From contig DASZTW010000005.1 of assembly GCA_035547835.1 (NCBI GenBank), forward strand, positions 310,001 to 374,000: DNA of 64,000 nt, in the 5' to 3' direction. The notes beneath the pieces are model-generated. The model was not told the DNA's origin. It ran no database searches and saw only the letters and a program-made list of their open reading frames with translations. Position numbers and translations under genes: made by a program. Positions 13,004-30,274 of the stretch are shown one piece after another. This DNA is from Acidimicrobiales bacterium. Lineage in GTDB: Bacteria; Actinomycetota; Acidimicrobiia; Acidimicrobiales; Iamiaceae. Position 1 is the first letter of the stretch. Each line of letters starts with the position of its first letter.

Positions 13004-14194
13004 TCAGACGGTGACAGGGACGCGCATGATGTTGGCGAGGTTGCCGCCCATGATCTTGGCGATGTCGTCGTGGGGCATGTCGGCCGGCAGGTGGTCGGCG
13101 TACGAGCACGGCTCGGCGAGGCCCTCGGGATGGGGGTAATCGGACCCGAACAACACGTGGTCGATGCCGAGCGTCTCGATGATCTTGTCGAGGTGATCCT
13201 CGTGGAACGGGCTGATGTAGACGTTGCGCTTGAACGCCTCCACCGGGTCCTCCTCGAACATCTGCGGCACCTTGCGGTGCACGTCGGCGAGGTGCTCGAG
13301 GAAGGGGATCACCCAGTCGGCGCCGTTTTCGATGAACGCGATCCGCAGGTCGGGGAACCGGGTGAGCAGCCCGTGGCAGGTCATGGCCGCCGCCGTGTCC
13401 TCCGCCGCTCGCTTGCCCATCGTGAGCATCCGGAAGCTGTCGAGGCGGAACGGCAACATCTCCTGCGGGCCGGTCCAGTCAGCCTGGTAGCGGGCGTAAC
13501 CGCTGTCCGACGCGTGCATCGACACGAGGATGTCGTGGTCGACCACGGCCTGCCAGAACGGGTCGAACTCGGGGTACGCGAACGAGCGGGAGCCGCCGAA
13601 GCCGGGCACCGGAGCAGGCCGGATCAACACCGTCTTGGCACCGCGCTCCACGGCCCACTCGAGCTCCTCGATCGCCTTCTCGACGATCGGCAACGTGATC
13701 ACGGGGGTCGTGAAGATGCGGTCCTCGTAGTTGAACTGCCACGTCTCGTACAGCCACTCGTTGAGGGCGTGGATCACCACGTGCGTGGTCACCGGGTCGT
13801 CGCGCAGCCGCTCCTCGAGCAGGCTCGCCAAGGTCGGGAACATCAAAGTGCGGTCGACGCCGAGCTCGTCCATCAGCTCGAGGCGTGGGGCCGGCTCGCG
13901 AAAGGCGGCGGGTGCACGCATCGGCTCGCCGATCACCTCACGGAACGACTTCCCCTCGGGGTTGCCGATGCGGAAGTACTCCTCCTGCGCTCCGGGACGT
14001 GCGACGACCTCGAAGGTGGGATTCGGGATGTAGTCGCTGATCGTGCCGCGCACGACGATCTTCGTGCGGCCCTCGACCTCGACGTAGCGGATCGCTTCTC
14101 GGTACTGCTTGGGCAGATGCCGGGTGAAGGCGTCCTTCGTCTCGTAGAGGTGGTTGTCGGCGTCGAAGATCGGGAAGTCGAGCGTACGTGCCAT
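13004..14194 (-). CDS. Amidohydrolase-2 family metal hydrolase/decarboxylase
   Basis: TIM-barrel amidohydrolase of 396 aa, of the family that includes ACMS and gamma-resorcylate decarboxylases. It opens with FPIFDADNHLYE, where the usual metal-binding DxHxH is reduced to DADNH, and later has ILVSMHASDSGY with a barrel histidine, AFIENGADWVIPFLEHL, and the closing aspartate in VLFGSDYPHPEG. I chose the ATG at 14194: a consensus TACAAT -10 (14207-14202) ends 7 nt before it, so it would be read as a leaderless message. The upstream ATG at 14203 overlaps that -10. The substrate is unknown. It diverges from a second amidohydrolase. Confidence 0.8.
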   Translation of the reverse strand: MARTLDFPIFDADNHLYETKDAFTRHLPKQYREAIRYVEVEGRTKIVVRGTISDYIPNPTFEVVARPGAQEEYFRIGNPEGKSFREVIGEPMRAPAAFREPAPRLELMDELGVDRTLMFPTLASLLEERLRDDPVTTHVVIHALNEWLYETWQFNYEDRIFTTPVITLPIVEKAIEELEWAVERGAKTVLIRPAPVPGFGGSRSFAYPEFDPFWQAVVDHDILVSMHASDSGYARYQADWTGPQEMLPFRLDSFRMLTMGKRAAEDTAAAMTCHGLLTRFPDLRIAFIENGADWVIPFLEHLADVHRKVPQMFEEDPVEAFKRNVYISPFHEDHLDKIIETLGIDHVLFGSDYPHPEGLAEPCSYADHLPADMPHDDIAKIMGGNLANIMRVPVTV

Positions 14195-14207
14195 GTCGCG
14201 CATTGTA

Positions 14208-14223
14208 GCGTCACGTATGACGC
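14208..14223. promoter_or_regulatory. Operator-like palindrome GCGTCA-N4-TGACGC
   Basis: Perfect 6-bp arms with a 4-nt centre, placed directly upstream of TACAAT on the minus strand, that is, in the spacer of the amidohydrolase promoter. A bound dimer would block it. TetR-like spacing; regulator unknown. Confidence 0.5.
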
Positions 14224-14226
14224 AGG

Positions 14227-14254
14227 TGTTAGTTTTCTTTGACACGACTGTTAG
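14227..14254 (+). promoter_or_regulatory. Two TGTTAGTT motifs 22 bp apart
   Basis: TGTTAGTTT at 14227-14235 and TGTTAGTTC at 14249-14257 flank a consensus TTGACA (14239-14244). The first fits an extended -10 for the plus-strand amidohydrolase. The exact 22-bp repeat spacing (two helical turns) could also be a protein site. Confidence 0.35.
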
Positions 14255-14316: not shown

Positions 14317-15588
14317 ATGCAGATGGACGACATGATCCTGGTCAGCATCGACGACCACATGGTCGAGCCACCGGACATGTACCAGAACCACGTGCCGGCC
14401 AAGTGGCTCGACAAGGCTCCGCGCGTCGAGCGCAACGACCAGGGCAACGACGAGTGGGTCTTCCAGGGCCAGCGCACCTCCACTTCGTTCGGCATGGCCG
14501 CCACGGTCGGCTGGCCGCGAGAGGAGTGGGGGTTCAACCCTGGCTCGTACACGGAGCTGCGGCCCGGCTGCTTCGACGTGCACCAGCGCGTCCGCGACAT
14601 GGATGCCAACGGCGTGCTCGCCTCGATGTGCTTCCCGACCATGGCGGGATGGAACGCCCGCACCTTCACCGAGTCGGGCGACAAGGAGATCGCCCAGATC
14701 ATGCTCCAGGCGTACAACGACTGGGTGCTCGATGAGTGGTGCGCCGCGTACCCGGGCCGGTTCATCCCGCTGTGCATCGTTCCGATGTGGGACGTCGAGC
14801 TGGCGGCCAAGGAAGTCGAGCGGGTGGCCAAGAAGGGCTGCCGCTCGATCAGCTTCCTCGAGACGCCCCACGTGCAGGGCTTCCCCAGCTTCTTGTCGGG
14901 CTACTGGGACCCGATGATGAAGATGATGTCGGACCATGACGTCGTGCTGTCGCTCCACATCGGCGCCGGCTTCGACGTCATCAAGCGACCGCCCGAAGCA
15001 CCCGTCGACCACCTCATGGTCCTGGCCTGCCAGATCAGTGCCATCACGGCGCAGGACCTGCTGTTCGGCCCCACGCTGCGCCAGTTCCCCGATCTCAAAG
15101 TGGCGCTGTCCGAAGGCGGCATCGGCTGGATCCCGTTCTACTTCGACCGCATCGATCGACACTTCCAGAACCAGGCATGGCTGCACGGCGGCGACGACTT
15201 CGGTGGCAAGCTGCCGTCGGAGGTCTTCCGCGACCACATCCTTGCCTGCTACATCACCGACCCGTCCGGCTTGTTGCTGCGAGACCGCATCGGCGTCGAC
15301 ATCATCGCCTGGGAGTGCGACTACCCGCACACCGACACGACGTGGCCCGAGTCGCCCGAGTTCGCCTGGAGAGAGTTCCAGGACGCCGGCTGCTCCGACG
15401 CCGACATCCACAAGATCACCTGGGAGAACAGCACCCGGTTCTTCGGTTGGGACCCGTTCGCGCACACCCCGAAGGACCAAGCCACAGTCGGCGCGCTGCG
15501 GGCTCGCTCGGCCGACGTCGACACGACCCGCCGCTCGCGCGCCGAGTGGAGGGAACGCAACGAGGCCGCCGGCATCGGCGTCTTCTGA
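14317..15588 (+). CDS. Amidohydrolase-2 family protein
   Basis: A 423-aa amidohydrolase paralogous to the divergent one. The N-terminal motif is ILVSIDDHMVEPPDMY, with DDH in place of DxHxH, and VVLSLHIGAGFDV supplies the central barrel histidine. VALSEGGIGWIPFYFDRID and IIAWECDYPHTDTTWP close the fold, with the usual late aspartate. Proteins of this group are widespread in actinobacterial degradation clusters and usually lack an assigned reaction. The ATG at 14317 follows GAGGGAG at good spacing; the frame remains open upstream but enters the promoter region. The next genes on the other strand are acyl-CoA dehydrogenases, so a role in the same pathway is likely but unproved. Confidence 0.8.
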   Translation: MQMDDMILVSIDDHMVEPPDMYQNHVPAKWLDKAPRVERNDQGNDEWVFQGQRTSTSFGMAATVGWPREEWGFNPGSYTELRPGCFDVHQRVRDMDANGVLASMCFPTMAGWNARTFTESGDKEIAQIMLQAYNDWVLDEWCAAYPGRFIPLCIVPMWDVELAAKEVERVAKKGCRSISFLETPHVQGFPSFLSGYWDPMMKMMSDHDVVLSLHIGAGFDVIKRPPEAPVDHLMVLACQISAITAQDLLFGPTLRQFPDLKVALSEGGIGWIPFYFDRIDRHFQNQAWLHGGDDFGGKLPSEVFRDHILACYITDPSGLLLRDRIGVDIIAWECDYPHTDTTWPESPEFAWREFQDAGCSDADIHKITWENSTRFFGWDPFAHTPKDQATVGALRARSADVDTTRRSRAEWRERNEAAGIGVF

Positions 15589-15730: not shown

Positions 15731-17032
15731 CTAGAGGTTGCCGACCTCGTGCTCGAGGTACGCGGCGTACTTGGCGCGCGCGGCCTCGACCTTTCCGGGG
15801 ATCCATTCGGTGGGCCACATGCCCTCGGTGCCTTCGTAGTCACGCAGCACTTGGCGCGCCACCGTCACCTTGTGCACTTCAGTGGGCCCGTCCGCGAGCC
15901 CCATGACCCCCGCGCCGTGAATCATCCCGAAGAACGGCATCTCGTTCGTGGTCCCCAGCGCGCCGTGCACCTGCATGGCACGCCACGCGATGTCGTGCAG
16001 CACGGTCGGCATGACGACCTTGGCGGTGGCGATGTCCTTCCGCACGCGCTGGTAGTCGTTGTACTTGTCGATCTTCCACGCGGTGTTGAGGACGAACAGG
16101 CGGAACTGGGCGAGCTGCGCGTACGACTCCGCGATGTAGCCCTGCACGAACTGCTTGTCGGCGAGCAGGCTGCCTTGGGTCTCGCGGCTGAGCGCCCGCT
16201 CGCACATCATGTCGATCGCCCGTTGCGACATGCCGATCGTGCGCATGGCGTGGTGGATCCGGCCACCGCCGAGGCGGGTCTGGGCGATCACGAACGCCTG
16301 TCCTTCGCCGCCGAGCAGCGACGCGGCCGGCACCCGCACGTTGTCGTAGTGGATCAACGCGTGCGAACCCTCGTTCATCGGCTCGCCGTACAGGCCGACG
16401 TTGCGCTCGATGCGCACGCCAGGGGTGTCGGTCGGGACCAGGAACATCGACATGCCCTTGTACGGGCTCACGTCGGGGTTCGAGACGGCCATCACGATGA
16501 GGAACGCGGCCGTCTTGGCGTTCGAGGAGAAGTACTTCCAGCCGTTGATGACCCACTCGTCGCCGTCTTGCACAGCCTGGGTCGTGAACTGGGTGGGGTC
16601 GGCCCCGGCGTGCGGCTCGGTCATCGAGTAGCTCGAGAAGATCTCGCCGTCGAGCAGCGGCTGGAGGTAGCGCTCCTTCTGCTCGGGGGTGCCGTAGTGG
16701 GCGATGATCTCGGCGTTGCCGGTGTCGGGTGCCTGGCAACCGAACACGATCGGGGCCCACTGCGAGCGGCCGAGGATCTCGTTGAGCAGCGCCAACTTGA
16801 GCTGGCCGTAGCCCTGCCCGCCGAGCTCGGGCCCGAGATGGGTGGCCCACAGACCTTGCCGGCGGACTTCCTCTTTGAGCGGGTCGATGATCTTGCGGCG
16901 GGTCTCGTCGAGCGGGACGAACTGCAGGTGCGGGAACGCGTGGTCGAGCGGCTCGACTTCCTCCCGCACGAACTCCTCGACCCAGTCGAGTCGTGCCTGG
17001 TAGTCGGGATCAGTCTCGAAGTCCCACGCCAT
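15731..17032 (-). CDS. Acyl-CoA dehydrogenase (ACAD10/11-like)
   Basis: FAD-dependent acyl-CoA dehydrogenase of 433 aa that introduces the alpha,beta double bond. Signatures: LGPELGGQGYGQLKLALLNE near residue 70, SSYSMTEPHAGADPTQF (flavin binding) near 137, and WVINGWKYFSSNA after it. The C-terminal helix reads VMGLADGPTEVHKVTVARQVL, which is typical of the ACAD10/11-like branch. The ATG at 17032 has an excellent ribosome site (GGGAGGAGCGGCCC); the frame upstream of it is promoter DNA. A palindrome CCAGAAT-N3-ATTCTGG lies 22 nt ahead. It follows two other dehydrogenase genes on this strand after 119 nt, so it probably has its own promoter. Substrate chain unknown. Confidence 0.85.
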   Translation of the reverse strand: MAWDFETDPDYQARLDWVEEFVREEVEPLDHAFPHLQFVPLDETRRKIIDPLKEEVRRQGLWATHLGPELGGQGYGQLKLALLNEILGRSQWAPIVFGCQAPDTGNAEIIAHYGTPEQKERYLQPLLDGEIFSSYSMTEPHAGADPTQFTTQAVQDGDEWVINGWKYFSSNAKTAAFLIVMAVSNPDVSPYKGMSMFLVPTDTPGVRIERNVGLYGEPMNEGSHALIHYDNVRVPAASLLGGEGQAFVIAQTRLGGGRIHHAMRTIGMSQRAIDMMCERALSRETQGSLLADKQFVQGYIAESYAQLAQFRLFVLNTAWKIDKYNDYQRVRKDIATAKVVMPTVLHDIAWRAMQVHGALGTTNEMPFFGMIHGAGVMGLADGPTEVHKVTVARQVLRDYEGTEGMWPTEWIPGKVEAARAKYAAYLEHEVGNL

Positions 17033-17151: not shown

Positions 17152-18435
17152 TCAGCCCGGCGAGCCCGACGACGGGCCACGTGGCACGTCGCGAAACGGC
17201 ACGTCGCGGTCGAGCGAGCGCTCCCGGGGCATGCCGAGCACCCGCTCGCTGATCACGTTGCGAGCCATCTCCGTGGTGCCACCGCCGATGGCGGTGACCT
17301 GGCGCATCAGGTAGTCGATCCCGACACCGGCGGCCGACCCGTCGTCGTCGGACCACGCCGCCCCTGCGCCGCCGGCGATCTCGAACGCGATCGACGTCTT
17401 GCGCGCCGTCGCCTCGGCCGTGAACAGCCGGCTCACGGCCGCCGCCTGGTCGGACATCGCGCCCGTCGCGATCCCGTCGCGCAACCGGCGGTGGGCGGCA
17501 TCCCGCACCAGGTCGAACATCCGCGCCTCGCCGATCAGGTCACGCACGCCGGGATCGTCGAGCCGACCCACGTCGCGGGCCAAGGCGACGAACGTCGCGG
17601 CGCCCAACCCGCCGTGCACCAGGTCGGATGGGAAGGTGACGTACGGCGAGTTGTGGAGCATCCGCTCGTGGAACATCCACCGCGTGCCGACCGTCCAGCC
17701 ATCGTCGACCTCGCCGACGCGGTCGGCGTCGGGCACCCGCACGTCGGTCATGAACTCCTGGCAGAACTCCTTGTTGCCGTTGAGCATCTCGATGCGGTGC
17801 ACCTCGATGCCGGGCTGGCGTAGCGGCAACATGAAGACGGTCAGGCCTCGGTGCTTCGGCACGTCCCAGTTCGTGCGCGCAAGGCACAGTCCCCAGTCGG
17901 CCCACCACGCACCGGTGGTCCAGATCTTCGAACCGTTGAGGACCCACTCGTCGCCGTCGCGGGTGGCGCTGGTCAGCGCCCCCGCCACGTCGGAGCCCCC
18001 GCTCGGCTCCGACAGCAGCTGCATCCAGATCTCCTCGCCTCGCAAGATGGCCGGCAGGTGACGGCGCTTTTGCTCCTCGGAACCGAAGTCGAGGATCACC
18101 GCCGCGCACGGCGAGTGCGTGGGCGCTTGGAGGCGCGAGGGGGTCTCGAAACCCGACAGTTCCTCGTTCAGCGCGGCTTGGTGCGCGGGGCTGAGCCCCT
18201 GGCCGCCGTACTCGCGCGGGAAGCAGATTCCGGCGAGCCCCGCGTCGAACAGGCGGCGCTGGAGCTGGCGGTCGTAGTCGACTGCGGCGAGCTCCTCTTC
18301 CTCGTTGCGATCGTTGCGCAACGTCATCACGTTGGCAGTGGAGCGTTCGAGGTTGTCCTCGATCCACGCCCGTGCGCGCCGGCGGAAGGCGTCGAGGCTC
18401 TCGCCGGACCCGTGGTCCGTGGGCGCGTTGCTCAC
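17152..18435 (-). CDS. Acyl-CoA dehydrogenase, putative large partner of a pair
   Basis: A 427-aa acyl-CoA dehydrogenase. Seen: FPREYGGQGLSPAHQAALNEE near residue 68, IWMQLLSEPSGGSDVAG (flavin/acyl site) near 128, EWVLNGSKIWTTGAWWADW, and at the C-terminus TAIGGGTTEMARNVISERVLG. The position that holds glutamate in short-chain enzymes is glycine here, so the base may lie on another helix, as in long-chain and steroid-type enzymes. Its GTG overlaps the stop of the preceding dehydrogenase by 4 nt (GTGA). Two such genes fused by overlap are the usual arrangement of alpha2beta2 heteromeric dehydrogenases acting on steroid side chains in mycobacteria; I infer a similar pair here. Confidence 0.82.
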   Translation of the reverse strand: MSNAPTDHGSGESLDAFRRRARAWIEDNLERSTANVMTLRNDRNEEEELAAVDYDRQLQRRLFDAGLAGICFPREYGGQGLSPAHQAALNEELSGFETPSRLQAPTHSPCAAVILDFGSEEQKRRHLPAILRGEEIWMQLLSEPSGGSDVAGALTSATRDGDEWVLNGSKIWTTGAWWADWGLCLARTNWDVPKHRGLTVFMLPLRQPGIEVHRIEMLNGNKEFCQEFMTDVRVPDADRVGEVDDGWTVGTRWMFHERMLHNSPYVTFPSDLVHGGLGAATFVALARDVGRLDDPGVRDLIGEARMFDLVRDAAHRRLRDGIATGAMSDQAAAVSRLFTAEATARKTSIAFEIAGGAGAAWSDDDGSAAGVGIDYLMRQVTAIGGGTTEMARNVISERVLGMPRERSLDRDVPFRDVPRGPSSGSPG

Positions 18436-19574
18436 GCTGCGCTCCCCTCGTTCTGTTCGGCGATGTCCGCCAGCCGCTGGCGATGCTCGGCAGCTGTGCC
18501 GCAGACCGCCGCGTTGACCGTGACGCGCCGCAAGTAGAGGTGCAAGTCGTGGTCGAACGTGATCCCGATGCCGCCGTGGAGCTGCACGCACTCCTGCAAC
18601 AGCTCCGTTCCGTACGTGCCGATGTATGCCTGCGCGGCGCTGACCAGCTCGACCGCGTCGGCCTGTCCCCGCGCGACCGCGGCGGCCGCTTCGTCGGCGA
18701 TGGCGTGGCTTCCTTCGAGCCACATCAACATGTCGGCGAAGCGGTGCTTGAGGGCTTGGTAGGACGCCAGCGGACGCCCGAACGAGTAGCGGTCGAACGC
18801 CCACTCGACGGTCATGTCGAACGCTCGCTGCATGGCGCCGACGGACTCCGCGGCCAGCAGGACGCCAGCCATCTGCAGCTGCCGGCCGACCTGTTCACCG
18901 GCCTCGCCAACCGCGCCGATGAGCGCCGTGGCCGGCATCCGCACCTCGTCGAAGCGCAACCGCGCGAAACGCCGGGTGAGGTCGACCGACTGGAGCGGCT
19001 CGACGGTGAGGCCCTCCGCGTCGGCGGGCACCAGGAGCTGCGTGAGACCGTCGCCGGTGCGGCCCGCGACCACGACGTGCGTGGCTCGGCCACCGGCTTC
19101 GACCGGCCGCGCGATGCCCGTGAGCACGAGGTCGTCGCCCGCGGGCGTGATCGTGACCGAGGCCGTGTCGCCACCTCGTCTCTCTGCACCCGAGGCCGCG
19201 AACCACGAGACGAGCGCCGCACCCGACAGCTGATCGTGCAGCGCTGCCAGATGACCCGCGTCGGTCGACGAGCTCAGCGCGCAGGCCGCCAGGTTGGCGC
19301 CGATCAGCGGTCCGGGCGCGGCGTGACGGCCGAACTCGTAGGCGATCAACGTGAGGTCGACCAGCCCGTGGTCGCTGACCGCGCCGCCACCGTGTGCCTC
19401 GTCGACGAGCAGCGACGTCCAGCCGAGCTCGGCCCCTTGGCGCCAGTAGTCGGGGGTGAACCCTGCAGGGTCGTGGCGCAACGCCCGGAGGTCGGCGACG
19501 CCTGCCCGATCGGTGAGGAAACGATCGGTCGTCTCGCGGAGAAACGCCTGGTCGCCGTTCGGCTGGATCAGCAC
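18432..19574 (-). CDS. Acyl-CoA dehydrogenase, putative small partner of a pair
   Basis: A 380-aa, more divergent member of the family. N-terminal LIQPNGDQAFLRETTDRFL is the standard first helix, ELGWTSLLVDEAHGGG follows near residue 55, while the flavin-binding SEPxxGSD loop is missing and replaced by a short SWFAASGAERRGGD segment. The later AAESVGAMQRAFDMTVEWAFDR and YSFGRPLASYQALKHRFADM helices are well kept, and QLHGGIGITFDHDLHLYLRR near the end is family-typical. Loss of the flavin loop fits a non-catalytic or half-site partner subunit. The frame is open to 19667 (TTG) but that extension looks non-coding, so I use the GTG at 19574. It shares a 4-nt overlap with the next dehydrogenase and diverges from the CoA-transferase operon. 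Confidence 0.8.
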   Translation of the reverse strand: MLIQPNGDQAFLRETTDRFLTDRAGVADLRALRHDPAGFTPDYWRQGAELGWTSLLVDEAHGGGAVSDHGLVDLTLIAYEFGRHAAPGPLIGANLAACALSSSTDAGHLAALHDQLSGAALVSWFAASGAERRGGDTASVTITPAGDDLVLTGIARPVEAGGRATHVVVAGRTGDGLTQLLVPADAEGLTVEPLQSVDLTRRFARLRFDEVRMPATALIGAVGEAGEQVGRQLQMAGVLLAAESVGAMQRAFDMTVEWAFDRYSFGRPLASYQALKHRFADMLMWLEGSHAIADEAAAAVARGQADAVELVSAAQAYIGTYGTELLQECVQLHGGIGITFDHDLHLYLRRVTVNAAVCGTAAEHRQRLADIAEQNEGSAA

Positions 19575-19668
19575 CGGGCTACCTGCCGCTCGCCGCGCGG
19601 AGGTGGTGTCGGTTCGGATGCTCGACGGGCACGAATCCCTCGTTTCCCAACTCGTTTGGTGACGCAAC

Positions 19669-19677
19669 TGTTAGATT
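19669..19677 (+). promoter_or_regulatory. Extended -10 promoter, TGTTAGATT
   Basis: TGn plus TAGATT, 50 nt before the ATG of the CoA-transferase operon. Upstream, CTCGTTT occurs twice in direct orientation at 19639-19645 and 19651-19657, exactly 12 bp apart, at the place of a -35 region. Confidence 0.45.
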
Positions 19678-19727
19678 ACTTCCTTCGCAGCCCACGCCGT
19701 CCACCCGGCACCCCATCGGAGGCCTCC

Positions 19728-20945
19728 ATGACTGCCGTGATGCAAGGCGTTCGCATCCTCGAAGTGGCGGAACAGACGTTCGTGCCCGCCGCGTCGGCCC
19801 TGCTGTCGGACTGGGGCGCCGACGTGATCAAGATCGAGCACGCCGTGCGAGGCGACGCGATGCGGGGGCTCGCCTCGACCGGCGTGGCGCTGATCCCCAC
19901 CGACGTGCACGTGCTGCTCGAGCACTCCAACCGCGGCAAGCGCAGCCTCGGGCTCGACCTGTCGACCGACGAGGGACGAGCGATCCTCTATCAACTCGCC
20001 GCGACCGCCGACGTCTTCCTCACCAACAAGTTGCCCGGCGTGCGCGAGCGACTGCGCATCCGCGACGACGACATTCGCGCGCACAACCCGAACATCATCT
20101 ACGTGTGCGGCACCGGCCAAGGCGAGCGGGGGCCCGACGCCGACAAGGGCTCCTACGACGCACTCGCGTTCTGGGCGCGCGCCGGCGCGGCCTACGGCGT
20201 GCAACGACCCGAGCACACCAACGTGCCGTCGCCACCCGGGCCGGGCTATGGCGACTCCATCGGGGCGATGACCATCGCCGGCGGCATCATGGGCGCGCTG
20301 TTCCACCGCGAGCGTACCGGCGAGGCCACCACCGTCGACGTCTCGCTGTTCGGCACCGGCTTGTGGGCCATGGGCCAATCCGTCGCGCTGTCGCTCGTGC
20401 TCGACCAACCGCTGCCTTCGCCGTCCGACGACGCACCGCGCGCCAACCCACTCGTCGCCAACTACCTCACCAAAGACGGTCGCTGGCTGGCGCTCTGCTG
20501 CCTCCAGGCCGGCCAGTACTGGAGTGGGCTGTGCGACGCGATCGGACGACCCGAGCTCGCCGACGATCCACGGTTCAACAGCCATGACCTGTTGATGGAC
20601 AACCACCGCGAGGTGAAGGCGATCCTGCGCGAGGCGTTCGGCGCTCGCACGCTCGAAGAGTGGCGGGATGCGCTGGCGGGCTTCGCCGGGCAGTGGACCG
20701 TGGTCCAGCACTCGCTCGAAGCCGCCAACGACCCGCAGTCCGGAGCGAACGGCTACATCCAGGACTGTGTGACGGCCAAGGGCATCCCGTTCAAGCTGGC
20801 GGCCGCCCCGGTGCAGTTCGGCGGTGAGCCGTCGCCGGCGGGGCGCGCGCCCGAGCTCAACGAGCACGGCGACGAGATCCTCGCTGAGCTCGGCCTCGAC
20901 TGGGACACGGTGGTCGATCTCAAGGTCCGGGGCATCGTGGCGTGA
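19728..20945 (+). CDS. CaiB/BaiF family III CoA-transferase
   Basis: A 405-aa family III CoA-transferase. MQGVRILEVAEQTFVPAASA opens the protein, GADVIKIEHAVRGDAM is the CoA-binding strand, LEHSNRGKRSLGLDLSTDEG and DVFLTNKLPGVRERL follow, and the catalytic-aspartate region reads PGPGYGDSIGAMTIAGG near residue 178. The start at 19728 has a textbook GGAGG 6-7 nt upstream. It begins a tight plus-strand operon: its stop overlaps the double-TetR gene by 4 nt (GTGA), then come a P450 and an acyl-CoA ligase whose start also overlaps. That makes it a likely CoA-loading step for the compound handled by this operon, whose identity is unknown. Confidence 0.85.
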   Translation: MTAVMQGVRILEVAEQTFVPAASALLSDWGADVIKIEHAVRGDAMRGLASTGVALIPTDVHVLLEHSNRGKRSLGLDLSTDEGRAILYQLAATADVFLTNKLPGVRERLRIRDDDIRAHNPNIIYVCGTGQGERGPDADKGSYDALAFWARAGAAYGVQRPEHTNVPSPPGPGYGDSIGAMTIAGGIMGALFHRERTGEATTVDVSLFGTGLWAMGQSVALSLVLDQPLPSPSDDAPRANPLVANYLTKDGRWLALCCLQAGQYWSGLCDAIGRPELADDPRFNSHDLLMDNHREVKAILREAFGARTLEEWRDALAGFAGQWTVVQHSLEAANDPQSGANGYIQDCVTAKGIPFKLAAAPVQFGGEPSPAGRAPELNEHGDEILAELGLDWDTVVDLKVRGIVA

Positions 20946-22273
20946 CCACCCGTCCCAGCCAGTCGAACAGCGCGCGCGCCCGCGACGGCGTGATCGTGCG
21001 GCGCGCCCCGTTCTCGGAGAACCCCACCGTTGGCGCCCGCGGCCAGCAGACCCAGCAGCGCATCCTCGACGCGGCCCTGCGGGTGTTCGCCGAGGAGGGC
21101 TACCACCAGTGCAGCGTCGACCGGATCACGACACGGGCCGGCTGCTCGCGGGTGGCCTTCTACCAGTACTTCTCCAGCAAGGAGGACGTGTTCCGCCACT
21201 TGTCCGGACAAGTCGCCCGCCAACTCCGGGCTTCGACCGAAGCGCTCGATCCCATCGGCCCCGACGAGGCCGGCTGGCAGAGCTTGCGCAGTTGGGTGGC
21301 GCGCCACGGCGAGATCTACGAACGGCACCAGCCGGTGTACAACGCGTTCGGCGCTGCAGCCGAGACCGACGAAGAGGTCGCGTCCGGGGCGGCGCGCTGG
21401 GGCGAGCGCAACGTCGCGACCATCCGCTCGCGGTTGACCACCATGACCCTGCCGCCGCGGCAGCTCGACCCCCTGATCCTCCTGTTGAGCTCGTGGATGA
21501 CCCACACGCTCGACCTCAGCACGATCCTGCGCGTGGCCGCCCCCGAGGCGTACCCGAAGGATCGGCTCGAGGTGGCGCTCACCGATGTCATCCACCGCTC
21601 GCTGTTCGGCCTCGCCGCGAGCGTCAACATGCACGCTCCGGCGGCCACGCCTCCCCCGCGGCTCGACTTCGGTCCGGCCTTGCGCGAGCTCTTCGCGGAC
21701 GCCCGGACGCAACCCACCGAGCCCTCGAACGGGCGGCGCGCCCTGGCCGCGCTGCTGGCGTCGAGCCGCGACGTCTTCATCAACCGCGGCTACCACGGCA
21801 CCCGGGTCGACGACCTCGTCGAGGCCGCAGGCGTGTCGCACGGCGCGTTCTACCGCTACTTCCCCAACAAGGAGGCGTTGGTCCGCGCGCTCACCGCCAC
21901 GGCGATCCAGAGCGTGTCCCGCACCTTCCTCGAGCTCCCGCAGCTCGAGGGGCCCGACCACTCCGGCGACCGGGCCGCGCTGCGGCGCTGGCTGCGCCGC
22001 TACAACGCCAGCCAGTCGGAGGAAACCGGCATGATCCGCGTGTGGGTCGAGGGGTCGCTCCGCGACGCCACGCTGACAGCCGAGCGGGCCGCGTTGTTCG
22101 ACTGGGGCCGCCGGCGCGTCGCCCGCTTCCTCGCACCCCGCAACTTCGGCGACGTCGACACCGAAGCGCTGCTGATGGTGTCGCTGCTCAGTGCGTTCGG
22201 CGCCGAGAGCCGCCCCGCGGCCACCGTCGACGCCGCCGCACACATCATCGAGCGTGGGCTCCTCGGGCGATGA
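20942..22273 (+). CDS. Tandem double TetR-family regulator
   Basis: A 443-aa protein made of two complete TetR monomers in one chain. The first DNA-binding domain spans about residues 36-85 (RILDAALRVFAEEGYHQCSV, then RAGCSRVAFYQYFSSKEDVF) and is followed by a ligand domain to about 230. The second DNA-binding domain spans about 265-315 (DVFINRGYHGTRVDDLVEAA, then GVSHGAFYRYFPNKEALVRA) and has its own helical domain to the end. Ordinary TetR proteins are near 200 aa and dimerise; this one could bind DNA as a covalent pseudo-dimer reading two unlike half-sites. The GTG overlaps the CoA-transferase stop by 4 nt, so it is co-expressed with the operon and may autoregulate it. The ligand is presumably an acyl-CoA or the substrate, by analogy only. 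Confidence 0.88.
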   Translation: MTTRPSQSNSARARDGVIVRRAPFSENPTVGARGQQTQQRILDAALRVFAEEGYHQCSVDRITTRAGCSRVAFYQYFSSKEDVFRHLSGQVARQLRASTEALDPIGPDEAGWQSLRSWVARHGEIYERHQPVYNAFGAAAETDEEVASGAARWGERNVATIRSRLTTMTLPPRQLDPLILLLSSWMTHTLDLSTILRVAAPEAYPKDRLEVALTDVIHRSLFGLAASVNMHAPAATPPPRLDFGPALRELFADARTQPTEPSNGRRALAALLASSRDVFINRGYHGTRVDDLVEAAGVSHGAFYRYFPNKEALVRALTATAIQSVSRTFLELPQLEGPDHSGDRAALRRWLRRYNASQSEETGMIRVWVEGSLRDATLTAERAALFDWGRRRVARFLAPRNFGDVDTEALLMVSLLSAFGAESRPAATVDAAAHIIERGLLGR

Positions 22274-23525: not shown

Positions 23526-24979
23526 CGCAACAGGCGCCGAGCCTCGGCCGCAAGATCGCCGAGCAGGCGGCCGTGCGCCCACACGACGAGGTCTACGTCC
23601 ACGTCGCGCTCGACGGCACGGAGCAGACGCTCACCTGGGAGACCTTGCACCGGCGGTCGAACCAGGTCGCGGCTGCGCTCGCCGACAAGGGCCTCGGCCT
23701 GGGCGACCGGATCGGCATCGCGCTGCGGAACTCGCCTGCCTTCACGTACACCGCGTTCGCGGCGTGGAAGGTGGGGGCCATACCGATCCCGATCCGGTGG
23801 GACCTCCCCGACTGGGAACTGCAACGCCTCCGAGAAGTCGTCGACCCGCGGGTGTTCGTCGGCGCAGACGACCTCGAGTGGATCGAGTCCACGACCGACC
23901 TTCCGCCAGCCGACCTGCCCGACGTCACATCGCCACGTGCGTACGGCATCTGCAGCAGCGGCTCGACGGGCACGCCCAAAGTGATCGTCGTCGCCGCTCC
24001 TGGTGAGTTCAACGACATGTACGCAGGCTCGATCGTCGACACGTGGGAACCGGCACCACGGCCGCAGACCATCGCCGTGCTGGCGCCGATGTACCACGTC
24101 AACGCCTTCGTGACCTTGCAGTACCTGCTCGCCGGCGACCGCCTCGTGGTCCTCGAGAAGTTCGAGGCAGCACGCGTCGTAGACGTGATCGAACGGCACC
24201 GGATCACCACGTTCACGGCCACACCCACGATGCTCCAGCGGATCGCCGATCTCCCTGGTGTCGACGAGCGCGACTTGTCGAGCTTGGTGTGGATCCTCCA
24301 GGGCGCGGCCCCGATGCCGCCGTCGCTCGTGCACAGATGGGCGTCGCTCATCGGCGCCGAGCGCATCGTGATGGCCTACGGCATGACCGAATCCATCGGC
24401 ATCACCGCGCTGCGCGGCGACGAGTGGATGACCCACGAGGGCAGCGTGGGCAAAGGGTTCCGCGGTACCGAGATCCGCATCCTCGACGAAGACGGCAAGC
24501 AAGTGCCCACCGGTTCGGTCGGGTCGATCTACCTGCAGTCGCCGACGTATGGCGGCTCCACGTATCTGGGTCAGGCACCGCAACTCGACGAGCGCGACGG
24601 GTTCCGCACGGTGGGCGACGTCGGCTACGTCGACGACGACGGTTACCTGTACCTGGTCGACCGCCGCGTCGACTTGATCATCAGTGGCGGCGCCAACGTC
24701 TTCCCCGCAGAGGTGGAGACTGCGCTGATCGACCACCCAGCGGTGGCCGACGTCGTGGTGGTCGGGTTGCGCGACCCCGAGTGGGGTCGGCGGGTGCACG
24801 CGATCGTCGAGCCTGCCGATCCCGGCACGCCGCCGACGGCAGGCGAGCTGATCGCATATGCCAAAGGCCGCCTCGCTGCCTACAAGGTTCCCAAGACGAT
24901 CGAGTTCGTCGAGCGGGTGCCGCGCAGCGAAGCAACCAAAGTGAACCGGCAGCGGCTGGTCGAGGCCCGCGGCGGCTGA
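23522..24979 (+). CDS. AMP-dependent acyl-CoA synthetase/ligase
   Basis: ANL-superfamily ligase of 485 aa that activates a carboxylic acid as acyl-AMP and then transfers it to CoA. The P-loop is ICSSGSTGTPKVIVV near residue 142. The core motif YGMTES is near residue 283, the hinge and ATP-ribose aspartate sit in FRTVGDVGYVDDDGYLYLVDR, and SGGANVFPAEVETAL near residue 398 is family-typical. The catalytic lysine is in SEATKVNRQRL close to the C-terminus. The GTG at 23522 overlaps the P450 stop by 4 nt. The gene ends only 5 nt from the convergent livF stop, so there is no room for a separate terminator. The substrate is inferred to be the acid produced or used by the P450 pathway. Confidence 0.85.
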   Translation: MTQQAPSLGRKIAEQAAVRPHDEVYVHVALDGTEQTLTWETLHRRSNQVAAALADKGLGLGDRIGIALRNSPAFTYTAFAAWKVGAIPIPIRWDLPDWELQRLREVVDPRVFVGADDLEWIESTTDLPPADLPDVTSPRAYGICSSGSTGTPKVIVVAAPGEFNDMYAGSIVDTWEPAPRPQTIAVLAPMYHVNAFVTLQYLLAGDRLVVLEKFEAARVVDVIERHRITTFTATPTMLQRIADLPGVDERDLSSLVWILQGAAPMPPSLVHRWASLIGAERIVMAYGMTESIGITALRGDEWMTHEGSVGKGFRGTEIRILDEDGKQVPTGSVGSIYLQSPTYGGSTYLGQAPQLDERDGFRTVGDVGYVDDDGYLYLVDRRVDLIISGGANVFPAEVETALIDHPAVADVVVVGLRDPEWGRRVHAIVEPADPGTPPTAGELIAYAKGRLAAYKVPKTIEFVERVPRSEATKVNRQRLVEARGG

Positions 24980-24984
24980 CGCGG

Positions 24985-25710
24985 TCAGTGGGATCCGGCG
25001 GCGAGCAGTCGTTCGGAGATGTCGCCGAGCGCAGCAGGCGAGCCGTCGTAGACCACTTCACCGTGCTGCAACAACACGACGGAGTCGGCGATCTGCATGG
25101 CGTGGCCGACGTACTGCTCGATGATCAGCAACGCGGTGCCCGCGCTGCGGACCTGGTCCAGCAAGCCGTACACCTCGTCGACGATGATCGGGGCCAACCC
25201 GAGCGAGAGCTCGTCGACCACCAGCAACCGCGGCGGCCGCACCAGCACCCGGGCCAGCGACAACATGCGCTGCTCGCCGCCCGAGAGCGTGCCGGCACGC
25301 TGCTTGCGGCGGTCGCCAAGGCGGGGGAAGAGCTCGAACGCCCGCTCGAGACCGGCGGCCACACCCCGTCGCCCCAAGCTGCGTTGGAAGTCGAGGGTGA
25401 GGTTCTCCTCGACCGACAGCGACGCGAACACCGACCGGCCTTCCGGCGCGTGGACGATGCCGAGCGGCGCGATCCGCCACGCTTTGAGATTCGTGATGTC
25501 GTGACCATCGAAGCGCACGGCGCCGGACGTGACCGGTACCAAGCCGGTGACGACCCGGGCGAGCGTGGTCTTGCCGGCACCGTTGGCACCGAGCAGCGCG
25601 ACGACTTCGCCCTCGCCGATCGAGAACGACACGTCGAACACGGCGCGGAACGGCCCGTAGCCCGCGTTGACCGAATCGAGCTCCAGCAGCGGCGCACCCG
25701 GCGCGGTCAC
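24985..25710 (-). CDS. livF: Branched-chain amino-acid-type ABC transporter ATPase LivF
   Basis: A 241-aa ATPase subunit of a HAAT-family importer at the inner face of the membrane. Walker A is LLGANGAGKTTLARV near residue 39, the signature is GTLSGGEQRMLSLARVL near 138, and Walker B is LLVVDELSLGLAP, where DE carries the catalytic glutamate. The HAPEGRSVFASLSVEENL segment is typical of LivF. The GTG start overlaps the livG stop by 4 nt. It is the last gene of a minus-strand operon that starts with an SDR and two binding proteins. The same subunits could also serve the second permease near 61 kb, which lacks its own ATPases in this window. Confidence 0.9.
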   Translation of the reverse strand: MTAPGAPLLELDSVNAGYGPFRAVFDVSFSIGEGEVVALLGANGAGKTTLARVVTGLVPVTSGAVRFDGHDITNLKAWRIAPLGIVHAPEGRSVFASLSVEENLTLDFQRSLGRRGVAAGLERAFELFPRLGDRRKQRAGTLSGGEQRMLSLARVLVRPPRLLVVDELSLGLAPIIVDEVYGLLDQVRSAGTALLIIEQYVGHAMQIADSVVLLQHGEVVYDGSPAALGDISERLLAAGSH

Positions 25711-26486
25711 GACTCGCTCCCGGATGTGGCCAGCTCGCCCAAGTAGGCCTCACGCACCCGCCGGTCGTTCAGCACCTCTGCGGTCGGGCCTTCGGCGATG
25801 ACGGTTCCGAAATCGAGCACATAGATCCGCTCGACGAACTGGCGCACCATCTCGACGTCGTGTTCGACCAGCAGGACCGCCGCGCCGCGTTCACGATGCA
25901 CGTTGCGCAGCGTCTCGGTGAGCGCCGCGGTCTCGCTGCGGTCGAGCCCCGAGGACGGCTCGTCGAGCAGTAGCAGGCGCGGCTCGGTCATCAAGGCTCG
26001 GCCGACCTCGACGAGTCGGCCGCGACCAAGGCTGAGCGACTCGATCGGCCGATCGGCGCAGTCATCCAGACCGAGCAGCGCCAAGGTGGCGTCGACCCGT
26101 TTCCTCGCGTCGGGCTTGGGACGGCTCAGCCCGACCACGTCGCGCCACACCGCGCACTTCCCGTCGCGCATCTGGTCGGCGAGCAACAGGTGCTCGCGGG
26201 GCGTCATGCCAGTGAACAGCTCGATGCGTTGGAAGGTGCGCCCGAACCCGAGGCGGGCCCGCTTGAAGGTGGGCATGCGACCAAGGGTCTGCCCGCCGAG
26301 GTGGACCGAGCCCTGGTCGGGGCGCAACACGCCGAACATGCAGTTGAACAGGGTGGTCTTGCCGGCGCCGTTGGGTCCGATCAGACCGACGAGCTCGCCA
26401 TCGTCGATGCGAAGGCTCACGTCGTTGAGCGCCTTGATGCCCGAGAAGCTCAACGAGATGTTCGACGCGTGCAAGAGCGCGCTCAT
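25707..26486 (-). CDS. livG: Branched-chain amino-acid-type ABC transporter ATPase LivG
   Basis: A 259-aa ATPase paired with LivF. Walker A is LIGPNGAGKTTLFNCMFG near residue 35, GRTFQRIELFTGMTPREHLL is the Q-loop region, and Walker B is RLLLLDEPSSGLDRSE with the switch histidine in LLVEHDVEMV. The signature reads LSLGRGRLVEVGRAL, where LivG proteins normally have LSYGQQR; the conserved LSxG is kept but glutamine is lost. It starts with ATG overlapping the permease stop by 4 nt. The C-terminal ALLxxEV tail specific to this family appears as EAYLGELATSG. Confidence 0.9.
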   Translation of the reverse strand: MSALLHASNISLSFSGIKALNDVSLRIDDGELVGLIGPNGAGKTTLFNCMFGVLRPDQGSVHLGGQTLGRMPTFKRARLGFGRTFQRIELFTGMTPREHLLLADQMRDGKCAVWRDVVGLSRPKPDARKRVDATLALLGLDDCADRPIESLSLGRGRLVEVGRALMTEPRLLLLDEPSSGLDRSETAALTETLRNVHRERGAAVLLVEHDVEMVRQFVERIYVLDFGTVIAEGPTAEVLNDRRVREAYLGELATSGSES

Positions 26487-28516
26487 CGGGCTTCACTCCC
26501 CTCGCCGATGCCAGCAGCTGTGGGCTGCGGATCCGGCGCACCGTCGGCCACGGCGACCGGCTCGGGGGGCGTGGCGACCGGCGACGGGGAACCCCGGTCG
26601 AGCAGTCGCTGGAGGCGGTTCATCGTGAGCCCGTTGTAGTACTGCAGCACGCCTTCGGGGTGTTGCGCGAAACCGATGGCGCCGAGGCCGAACAGCACGA
26701 TCTGCCACTGCTGGGAGATGTGCAGCGCTTGGAGGATCTCGGGGGAGAACGTGAACGCGCACGCCGCGGCGATCGCGCCCAGCACGGTGCGCGTGCCCAT
26801 GATGACCACGAGCACCAACCACAGCAGCGCGCCGACGACGGTGAAGTTCGCGTCGTAGTTGGCCGCACCTTCCCGCATGCTCAACAGCGCCCCGCCCAAG
26901 CCCGCCAGCGCGGCCGACACGGCGAACGCGAGGATCCGCAGTCGCGTCGGGCTGACGCCCATCGACGCGGCGGCGACTTCGGACGTGTCGAGCGCCCGCA
27001 AGCTCCGACCGACCAGACCGCGGCGGATGCGCGCGACGACGAACGACGCCAGCGCCAAGATCACGAAGCACAGCAGCATGTAGCTGCGATCGTCGGTGAA
27101 GTTGATCGGGCCGAGCTGCGGGCGCGGCACGGCAATCGGCAACTGCCCGCCGCTGGCCCAGTCGAACTTGCGAATCACGCTTTCGAAGAACATCGCGAAC
27201 GCCAACGTCGCGAGCGCCAGATAGATGCCGCCGAGCCGGAGCGCCGGGATGGCCAAGATCGCGCCCACGAGCGCGGCGAGCACCACGCCGATGACCATCG
27301 CCGGCAACACGCCCATGCCCTGTTTCGTGGCGAGCTGGCCGGCGGTGAACCCGCCGATGGCCGCGAACGAGCCCTGCGCCAGCGAGATCTGGCCCGCCAT
27401 CCCGGTGAACACCGTGAACGACAAGAAGATGACGGCCAGCGCGGCAGCCTTGGTGCCGAGGCCGACCCAGTAGTTGTCGGCGGCGAAACCGAAGTACAGC
27501 AGCGCGCCGGCGACCACCGCCACGCCCATGATCCGGGTGGCAAGGGTGAGGGCCGGGCTGCGTTCGTCGGTCACGTCGCCGGCAGACGGCGGGTCGACAC
27601 CGGCAAGGGGATCCGCGTGGCCGGTGTCGCGCTGCAACGACGGCTTGAAGATCAAGACCACGAACAGCAACACGAATGGCAACGACGGACGCAGGCCCTG
27701 CGAGACGATGCTGTTCGCCGGCAACCAACGAGCCAGCAGCTGCGCACCGATGCCGAGGCCGAGCCCACCGACCACTGCCAGAGGCAGGCTCGACAGGCCG
27801 GCGAACACGGCAGCAGCGATCGCCACCACGATCAACAAGAAGAAGTTCTGCGACGACAGCTGCGGATACAGCGGGCCGAGCAGCGCACCGGCGAGCCCGG
27901 CAAACAAGCTCGACAGCATCCACCCTGCCGACGACACCCGATCGGAGCTGATCCCTGCGAGCTCGGTCATGCGGGGGCTCTCGACGACCGCGCGCATTCG
28001 GAGCCCGATGGCCGTGTAGCGAAACAGCGCCGTCAGCACCACCAGCGCGCCGAGGGTGGCCACGATCGTGGCGATGTCGTCCCGGAAGAAGCCGTAGCTA
28101 CCGAGGTGGTACGTGGTGTCGCCGGACCCGACGATGCCCTCGACCCCGTACAGCGGCGCGGAGCCGAAGTCCAGCGCCAGCTTCACGATCTCGGGCAGGG
28201 CGAGCAACAGACCGATGGACACCGCCAGGCGCGCCACATGTGGCGCCGTGCGCAGATGGCGGAACACCGCCCAGTACAACAACACCCCGAGCAGCGGCGC
28301 GAACAGCACGACCGCGACGAGCACGGCCGGTGGGATCGGCCACCCGTGCTTCACACGAAGCTCGTAGTACAGCGCCGCCGAGGCGTACGCCTGCGCACCG
28401 AACGCCAGGTTGAAGACGCCCGACACCTTGTAGGTGAGGACGAACCCCATCGCGATGAGCGCGAAGACGCAACCCACCGGGAAGCCCTGGATGAACGAAC
28501 TGACGATGTCGTGCAC
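26483..28516 (-). CDS. Fused LivH-LivM permease
   Basis: A 677-aa integral membrane protein joining both permease subunits of a branched-chain amino-acid-type importer. Residues about 1-300 are LivH-like (GFVLTYKVSGVFNLAFGAQA, and GLRMRAVVESPRMTELAGIS as the ATPase-coupling loop). A hydrophilic linker of about 35 residues (HADPLAGVDPPSAGDVTDER) leads to the LivM-like half at about 330-640 (MAGQISLAQGSFAAIGGFTA, and VGRSLRALDTSEVAAASMGV as the second coupling loop). Each half has about eight membrane helices. The start is GTG at 28516, 44 nt after the binding-protein stop. The proline-rich C-terminal tail of about 35 residues is cytoplasmic and unexplained. Confidence 0.88.
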   Translation of the reverse strand: MHDIVSSFIQGFPVGCVFALIAMGFVLTYKVSGVFNLAFGAQAYASAALYYELRVKHGWPIPPAVLVAVVLFAPLLGVLLYWAVFRHLRTAPHVARLAVSIGLLLALPEIVKLALDFGSAPLYGVEGIVGSGDTTYHLGSYGFFRDDIATIVATLGALVVLTALFRYTAIGLRMRAVVESPRMTELAGISSDRVSSAGWMLSSLFAGLAGALLGPLYPQLSSQNFFLLIVVAIAAAVFAGLSSLPLAVVGGLGLGIGAQLLARWLPANSIVSQGLRPSLPFVLLFVVLIFKPSLQRDTGHADPLAGVDPPSAGDVTDERSPALTLATRIMGVAVVAGALLYFGFAADNYWVGLGTKAAALAVIFLSFTVFTGMAGQISLAQGSFAAIGGFTAGQLATKQGMGVLPAMVIGVVLAALVGAILAIPALRLGGIYLALATLAFAMFFESVIRKFDWASGGQLPIAVPRPQLGPINFTDDRSYMLLCFVILALASFVVARIRRGLVGRSLRALDTSEVAAASMGVSPTRLRILAFAVSAALAGLGGALLSMREGAANYDANFTVVGALLWLVLVVIMGTRTVLGAIAAACAFTFSPEILQALHISQQWQIVLFGLGAIGFAQHPEGVLQYYNGLTMNRLQRLLDRGSPSPVATPPEPVAVADGAPDPQPTAAGIGEGSEAR

Positions 28517-28560
28517 TGCGAAGTTCTCCCCGAGCCGTCACGGCGCCGCGCGCCGGACCG

Positions 28561-29970
28561 CTAGTGGGCTTCCTTGAACGTGAAGGGCTTGTTGGTGGCG
28601 AAGGTGACGTGCACGGGGGTCTGCCACACGTCGGGCTTCTGGCCGTCGAAGCACACCCAGGGCTTGCCGTTGTCGTCCCACACGCCCACGAACTTCCCGT
28701 TCGGCCCGACCTTGACGAAGTTGGCGCACTCGAACGGCCCCCGGTTCGTGGCGACCTTCGGGTCGCCGTGCTGGCGCGTCCAGTCGATCGGCGGGTTCCA
28801 GCCGTCGCCGACGTACCAGCTCTGCGTGTTCCAGGCGTTGATCAAGTTGGCCCAGGTGAAGTCCGGGCCGGCGGCCTTGAGCGCGTTCACGAACTGCAGA
28901 CCCGAGATCCAGCCCTGGGCGGTGAGCTCGGCGACCTGGATGTGGTGAGCCTTGGCGTACGCGACGTACTCCTTGACCGCGGCAGCCTGCGGCTGGTGCT
29001 CGAACGCGGTGATGTTCGCCAACATGATGTCGCCTTCGAGGTACTTGGCGTTCTTCGAGACGAACGTCTGGTCGTACATGTTGGCGTGCATGAAGGTGAC
29101 CTTGTCGCGGATCCCCTGCTTGACCATCTCCTTGGCCACTGCGAAGTCGCCGTTGTAGTCCATGCAGGTGACGAGGAAGTCGACGCCCTTCGACTTCATC
29201 TGCGAGACCTGTGCCGAGTAGTCGGTCTGGCCGAACTGCAACGACGAGTCTGCGAACACGACGTGTGCCCCGACGTCGTTGCCGAACTTGGTGAACGAGT
29301 CCTGCGTGCCCTTCGCGCACCCGGCTGCCTGGGGCACGCCATACGCGAGCACGCCAACCTTCGTGGCCTTGACCTGCTTGGCCACCCACGGCGCCATGTG
29401 TGGCTGCGGCGCGCAGTCGCTGAAGCACACCGGGCCGATGTTCGGGAAGAAGTTCTTGGGCCCGGCCCACTCGGGGTTGATGTTCCAGCCGAAGGTCGGG
29501 ATGCCGGCGGCTGCCAGCTTCGGCGCACCAGTGAACAGCTCGACCGCCTCGAAGACCGCGTACACGTTGTCCTGGCTCAACATCGCGTCGGTCTCGGTGG
29601 CGTTGTTGGCGGTCTGGTCATCACGCTCGGACGCCAGCTTGATCTTGCGGCCCCAGACGCCGCCCTTGGCGTTGATCATGTCGAAGTAGCCCTGCAGCCC
29701 CTTGTTGTACTGGCTGAGGTCGGTCCCGAGCGGGTTCGTCTTCGACACGATCGACCCCACGCGGATCTCCGTGTCGCTCACGCCCGGCGCGGTCACCGCC
29801 TGGTGCTTGGAGTAGTCCGAGCCGGAGTACGTGGTGACCGGCCCGTTCGACCCCGAGCCGGTGTCGGTGGTCGAGGACCCCTTCGAGGCGTTGCTGCACG
29901 CGGCAGCCACGAGGAGCAGCAACAGCACGGCCGCAACGGTGCGACCGCGGCCGGACATCAAGCGGTTCAT
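28561..29970 (-). CDS. ABC transporter substrate-binding lipoprotein (Peripla_BP_6), copy B
   Basis: Lipid-anchored binding protein of 469 aa for the adjacent LivHM-G-F importer. The signal peptide ends in the lipobox LLVAAAC near residue 22. The mature part begins with TAPGVSDTEIRVGSIVSKTN, the normal first strand of the family, and has GGVWGRKIKLASERDDQTAN and VKQGIRDKVTFMHANMYDQT. It closely resembles the next gene, copy A, over its whole length, including the cysteines in GPVCFSDC and VTCMDYNGDF. The ATG at 29970 is preceded by GGGGGATCC. Unlike its neighbours it is separated from copy A by 304 nt containing a promoter-like TGTTAGACT and a long palindrome, so it can be expressed on its own. 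Ligand unknown; amino acids, amides, urea or aromatic acids are all possible. Confidence 0.85.
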   Translation of the reverse strand: MNRLMSGRGRTVAAVLLLLLVAAACSNASKGSSTTDTGSGSNGPVTTYSGSDYSKHQAVTAPGVSDTEIRVGSIVSKTNPLGTDLSQYNKGLQGYFDMINAKGGVWGRKIKLASERDDQTANNATETDAMLSQDNVYAVFEAVELFTGAPKLAAAGIPTFGWNINPEWAGPKNFFPNIGPVCFSDCAPQPHMAPWVAKQVKATKVGVLAYGVPQAAGCAKGTQDSFTKFGNDVGAHVVFADSSLQFGQTDYSAQVSQMKSKGVDFLVTCMDYNGDFAVAKEMVKQGIRDKVTFMHANMYDQTFVSKNAKYLEGDIMLANITAFEHQPQAAAVKEYVAYAKAHHIQVAELTAQGWISGLQFVNALKAAGPDFTWANLINAWNTQSWYVGDGWNPPIDWTRQHGDPKVATNRGPFECANFVKVGPNGKFVGVWDDNGKPWVCFDGQKPDVWQTPVHVTFATNKPFTFKEAH

Positions 29971-30045
29971 CAGTGGGATCCCCCGATCTTCGTCGTCTGG
30001 CTGGCCAGCCAACGGCCCGATGCATCGAACAGCTTCAGGGTGCGC

Positions 30046-30054
30046 AGTCTAACA
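30046..30054 (-). promoter_or_regulatory. Extended -10 promoter, TGTTAGACT
   Basis: TGn plus TAGACT on the minus strand, about 76 nt before the copy B ATG. The palindrome at 30080-30102 lies immediately upstream of the expected -35. Confidence 0.4.
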
Positions 30055-30079
30055 GCGGTGTCACCCCCCGACCAGGCCC

Positions 30080-30102: not shown

Positions 30103-30274
30103 TGGCATCGGCCGGCCGACACGCATGACCCCAGTGTTCTTGTGGGCCGTGGTGAGGCTGGCCTCCGCCTGGCCGGCGCAGCGACTGGCGCAGGTCGACC
30201 CCGCGCCGCCGCGCGAGTGAGCAAGCGGACCAAGCGGTCCGAAATGTCTAACACCAACGTCATGTCGCGGGCGC

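Follow-up and report, generated by a model that had tools for sequence, protein, structure and literature searches.

A 443-aa protein encoded in the window, the stretch of 64,000 nucleotides from an Acidimicrobiales bacterium that was analysed, appears, with a probability of roughly three in four, to be a single-chain double-TetR repressor which reads an asymmetric DNA site, regulates its own operon and controls the promoters of the catabolic cluster around it. Most likely, the two unlike TetR halves of the polypeptide would pack together like the protomers of an ordinary TetR dimer, and the packed halves would present a single DNA-reading face with two different recognition helices. This face would recognise the site WA-N-TGACR-N4-Y-GT(T, less often C)AGAT, which is the predicted operator consensus. 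The protein would bind the promoter of its own operon as well as those of the surrounding amidohydrolase and Liv-transporter genes, and it would probably be released by a pathway intermediate, either a CoA-thioester or an acid. TetR regulators of such catabolic clusters are often released by pathway intermediates of this kind.

The double domain is visible in the protein itself. The TetR_N profile PF00440 matches two stretches of the chain with 119.6 bits against a cut-off of 24 and a whole-protein E of 4.7e-35, which is above the gathering score and places the protein in the TetR/AcrR family. The matched stretches lie at about residues 40-86 and 270-317; the helix-turn-helix (HTH) of the N-half covers about residues 37-86 and that of the C-half about residues 269-317. 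These belong to two complete TetR units, with the HTHs 230 residues apart and a domain of about 110-150 residues after each, and this is the double-TFR architecture of the Mce3R type. The two recognition helices are unlike each other, CSRVAFYQYFSSKED (SRVAFYQYF) in one half and VSHGAFYRYFPNKEA (SHGAFYRYF) in the other, and an N-terminal arm, RRxPF..NPxVGxRG, with several residues invariant among the relatives, precedes the first HTH. The original prediction of two TetR units in one chain, with different recognition helices, was therefore right on both points. Within the family the recognition helices are conserved at 0.89 and 0.91, the ligand domains at about 0.45 and the linker at 29%. The Mce3R-type architecture also has, within the chain, a four-helix bundle with one ligand domain; AlphaFold, run on the 443-aa chain from an alignment of six rows, returned a poor model, with a mean pLDDT of 45 and a pTM of 0.30, and a wider alignment (A3) placed every relative on the C-half.

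The gene is likely the second of an operon with the order CoA-transferase III, double-TetR, P450 and acyl-CoA ligase, and its GTG start codon shares bases with the TGA (20943-20945) that ends the CoA-transferase gene. Three dehydrogenase genes (15731 to about 19575) are oriented opposite to this operon. The gene content, and NCBIfam likenesses to IpdE2, PimC/PimD and BaiB which are all below cut-off, make the cluster look like one that may degrade a cyclic or branched carboxylic acid by way of CoA-dependent steps. The features are collected below.

Table 1. Genes, predicted operators and the direct repeat in the window. The operators were assigned by the motif TGACR-N4-YGTTAG.
Feature	Position	Strand	Basis and remarks
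Amidohydrolase	13004..14203	-	PF04909
Predicted operator TGACGCAGGTGTTAG	14218..14232	+	Motif; in the gap of the two divergent amidohydrolase genes
Predicted operator TGACACGACTGTTAG	14240..14254	+	Motif; same gap, 22 bp beyond the 14218 site
Amidohydrolase	14317..15588	+	PF04909
Third acyl-CoA dehydrogenase	15731..17029	-	Domain and NCBIfam searches
Acyl-CoA dehydrogenase, partner of the next	17152..18435	-	Domain and NCBIfam searches
Acyl-CoA dehydrogenase	18432..19667	-	Best NCBIfam IpdE2, below cut-off; start probably nearer 19575
Direct repeat CTCGTTT, two copies	19639..19657	+	Exact; copies at 19639-19645 and 19651-19657
Predicted operator TGACGCAACTGTTAG, then ATTA	19660..19674	+	Motif
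CoA-transferase family III, first gene of the operon	19728..20945	+	PF02515, E 8e-87
Double-TetR regulator	20942..22273	+	GTG start, 443 aa; ORF, PF00440 and alignment
Cytochrome P450	22314..23525	+	PF00067
Acyl-CoA ligase, AMP-binding	23540..24979	+	Best NCBIfam bile acid-CoA ligase BaiB, below cut-off
Liv-type ABC transporter genes (two ATPases, permease fusion, solute-binding protein)	24985..30012	-	Solute-binding protein PF13458; others by reading and homology
Predicted operator TGACACCGCTGTTAG	30049..30063	-	Motif; upstream of the Liv-type genes
Predicted operator TGACGTTGGTGTTAG	30248..30262	-	Motif; second site upstream of the Liv-type genes

The window holds five exact sites of the motif where 0.03 would be expected, none of 100 shuffles reached five, and every one of the five lies upstream of some gene or operon of the cluster. 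The site at 19660 stands between the operon of the regulator and the divergent acyl-CoA dehydrogenase genes. The original prediction had placed a non-palindromic site at the head of the regulator's own operon, near 19640-19680, and this seems likely, in the form of an asymmetric inverted quasi-repeat, TGACR-N4-YGTTAG. Strictly taken, its statement that there is no clear palindrome is correct, but it overlooked the quasi-palindrome TGACGCAACTGTTAG, which is the conserved element. The operator that it had proposed instead, the direct repeat CTCGTTT, is exact in the window and ends 2 bp before the predicted operator begins, yet none of 18 related double-TetR loci has the pair. Because it is not conserved, the repeat was discarded as an operator, and it is probably a chance occurrence. 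The predicted operator overlaps a possible extended -10, TGTTAGATT, of the CoA-transferase operon; no full sigma-70 promoter was found.

Two further sites in the same genome would fit a common regulon. One (L158:3051-3065) is flanked by divergently transcribed sulfatase and CoA-transferase genes, the latter a second one of family III, and the other (on L160) lies ahead of a second periplasmic binding protein.

The common element was first spotted by eye in the upstream sequences of the relatives, as TGAC, six bases and GTTAG, usually followed by AT. In 26 of the 27 loci listed it precedes the double-TetR gene or its operon by no more than 2.5 kb, mostly within 150 bp; a few of these loci overlap or are near-copies, so that not all are independent. 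A substitution scan over 587 kb found 74 matches to the consensus against 1 in the reversed sequence. Other bases gave zero or close to zero matches at nearly every fixed position, with the exception of C at position 13 (28 matches), and the spacing was strict as well: a spacing of 6 gave 81 matches and other spacings 0-2. Among 80 distinct sites, a set selected in part by the motif itself and including some near-duplicate loci, 56 are intergenic according to a crude gene caller which counts 91% as coding. At two loci (L087:8032 and L008:2667) the operator, with a -10-like TTAGATTA, ends about 10 bases ahead of the double-TetR start codon, which suggests that the mRNA may be leaderless there.

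The neighbourhoods of the relatives share part of the cluster. An amidohydrolase and an acyl-CoA dehydrogenase pair are the commonest neighbours, and many relatives have a homologue of the amidohydrolase at 14317 diverging from the double-TetR gene. The conserved CoA-transferase and P450 neighbours that had been foreseen do recur, together with the ligase, at some loci (L078, L081 and L085), but are not the commonest.

The motif also tracks the gene. Genomes with a close homologue have a mean of 7.25 sites (n=24) and those without one 0.82 (n=34), with p=9e-10, a value which is too small because the genomes are related. In all seven families or genera that include both kinds (f1/g2, f1/g9, f6, f13, f15, f19 and f27), positives exceed negatives on average. 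An exception within g2 is G014, where no double TetR was found despite seven motif sites and where the gene has perhaps been lost in assembly gaps. That some other regulator within this regulon reads the motif, in place of the double-TetR protein, is highly improbable. Related single TetRs are present in the sampled genomes, and a few homologue-negative genomes do have sites (seven in G014, four in G026 and four in G042, which also has control matches), perhaps from missing contigs or from another reader. Against this, the motif stands at the double-TetR gene's own promoter in nearly all loci and follows the presence of that gene, and the sampled single TetRs with a recognisable nearby site mostly have a symmetric palindrome. 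Paralogues were seen in three genomes (G162, G027 and G068), with two or three double TetRs each; G162 has three and 18 motif sites.

The counts of palindromes bear on how the two halves would be arranged. Two chains could instead pair into separate symmetric N-N and C-C TetR units, each with its own palindromic operator, an arrangement which is possible in principle and was considered and rejected for Mce3R (PMC11667970). TGAC palindromes do exist in the genomes sampled, but they hardly track the gene: the symmetric YTGACRNNNNYGTCAG has a mean of 9.2 in homologue-positive and 6.4 in homologue-negative genomes (p=0.05). Palindromes of the GTTAG type are practically missing: CTAACRNNNNYGTTAG is almost absent, and CTAAC..GTTAG occurs in 1 of 58 genomes. 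The conserved site combines two unlike half-sites, with the spacing fixed at 6 bp. The paired arrangement is thus distinctly improbable. The palindrome YTGACRNNNNYGTCAG was found in 53 of the 58 genomes of the order, whether or not a double TetR is present, and looks like a widespread ordinary TetR-type operator.

The asymmetry of the site can be measured. Loci chosen by the protein carry 15 sites of the form TGAC..GTCA, 31 of TGAC..GTTA and none of TAAC..GTTA, where exchangeable halves would predict 20, 21 and 5. Exchangeable half-sites are rejected with p=6e-4 in these loci, and with p=1e-9 in a larger set which was partly selected by the motif. The outer base G15 is present in 30 of 31 sites and its mirror, C0, in 7 of 31, which is background; the discordant sites number 23 to 0, and none of the 31 has the mirror C0 alone. 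Several loci, mostly of a close clade, carry TGAC..GTCA sites as well, and even there the G extension is at one end only in 12 of 15 (p=0.017).

Such asymmetry might be made by promoters, if a homodimer read TGAC..GTCA and overlap with a -10 box turned the right half into GTTAG(AT). In many sites GTTAGATTA does resemble an extended -10 directed at a gene, and GTTAGAT is found in 39 of the 80. But where just one flank of the site has a gene, 15 sites are directed at the gene and 12 away from it by crude gene calls (e.g. L093:5983), and in three close relatives (L077, L078 and L079) the site is reversed ahead of the double-TetR gene. The one-ended G extension of the TGAC..GTCA sites is inexplicable by any -10. 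Based on these three observations the asymmetry is not simply that of a -10 box, and the promoter explanation is unlikely. A single chain with two different reading heads remains the preferred reading, and the conserved asymmetric motif would be its non-palindromic operator.

Of the 397 genomes that were sampled in the order, about two dozen have relatives of full or nearly full length, at 26-60% identity, and a sample of the phylum gave no match outside the order at E<1e-25; a scan of genome contigs with the single sequence as query gave distant relatives only. A tree of the halves groups 24 of 26 N-halves in one clade (SH-aLRT 97) and all 26 C-halves in another (SH-aLRT 92), with a set of single-domain TetRs as the sister group of the C-halves. 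The N-halves of two divergent members (L069 and L070) fall elsewhere with weak support. Because N-halves and C-halves lie in separate clades the fusion would be old, and the tree seems to fit one fusion event followed by vertical descent. Other double TetRs, in which about 190 residues separate the HTHs, were seen on Spirochaete MAG contigs (L031, L032, L034, L035 and L037) and are probably a separate fusion.

We lean, with some reserve, towards an old fusion of two different TetRs, separate from Mce3R and widespread in one actinobacterial order, which kept one lopsided operator while each half specialised on its own half-site. If true, palindromic reading of DNA would have turned directional here along an evolutionary path of its own, independent of Mce3R and beside living single-domain sisters which carry palindromes. 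What appears to be new, as judged from sequence, is a double-TetR family separate from Mce3R, which has a defined regulon and a predicted operator that is conserved and whose asymmetry can be measured. No description of the family or the motif was found in the open literature, a scope that leaves most subscription journals outside. Mce3R is the sole double TetR for which a structure was found in the literature consulted, and the generality of asymmetric-site reading had been in doubt. The present family, an independent case, makes it possible to test how a symmetric reader becomes directional: its natural sites number in the dozens, their asymmetry can be measured, the regulon is defined, and single-domain sisters carry palindromes. 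The predicted fusion-specific operator would help to map regulons in little-studied actinobacteria and to build orthogonal switches.

The best PDB match of the protein is Mce3R (9b7y). Mce3R (Rv1963c of M. tuberculosis) was solved in 2024 as a single-chain pseudo-dimer on a non-palindromic site, with a structure, mutant and EMSA (PMC11667970). The original idea that a fused pseudo-dimer could read a non-palindromic site is therefore sound in general, though not new, because it was established for Mce3R (PMC11667970). Both proteins have two TetR units with two different HTHs in a chain of about 400 aa (PMC11667970, PMC2277422), and they share divergent genes and a setting of lipid or sterol catabolism; the non-palindromic operators and autoregulation of Mce3R (PMC11667970, PMC2277422) have predicted counterparts here. 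The similarity is low, however, and confined to HTH-level matches, with no full-length colinear similarity of the kind expected of a Mce3R orthologue. It is with its C-half that the profile aligns to Mce3R residues 5-117, so that the C-half here best resembles the Mce3R N-half; given the HTH-only similarity and the mismatched order of halves, a shared fusion event is not indicated. The predicted operator is a quasi-palindrome of 15-18 bp with fixed spacing, whereas the 25-bp sites of Mce3R are described without palindromes. The neighbours also differ: amidohydrolase, dehydrogenases, CoA-transferase, P450 and Liv transporter here, mce genes for Mce3R, and no mce genes, hence no mce/yrbE operon, among the neighbours examined.

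A total of 204 double TetRs have been predicted in actinomycetes (cited in PMC11667970). They have the same architecture, and the present protein may well belong to them or lie close to them; PMC11667970 gives an operator and regulon for Mce3R alone. Closer at hand are single-domain TetRs of the same order with the helix SHGTFYLYF (e.g. L193:15808-16521), the sisters of the C-halves, which have a similar recognition helix in a single TetR unit. Some have a perfect palindrome upstream, ACCTGAC-N6-GTCAGGT, and this or a near form was seen at 4 of 19 loci examined (L218:1393, L220:1476, L198:2605 and L160:7265). These sisters, with the helix SHG.FYxYF and TGAC palindromes, suggested that TGAC is read by the C-half. 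The assignment was given up, since CTGAC, the half-site of the sisters, has features in common with each of the two half-sites here. Lastly, the engineered single-chain TetR (PMC1797012) likewise has two TetR units per chain, but it was made by man from one repressor, whereas the present protein is natural and has two distinct halves.
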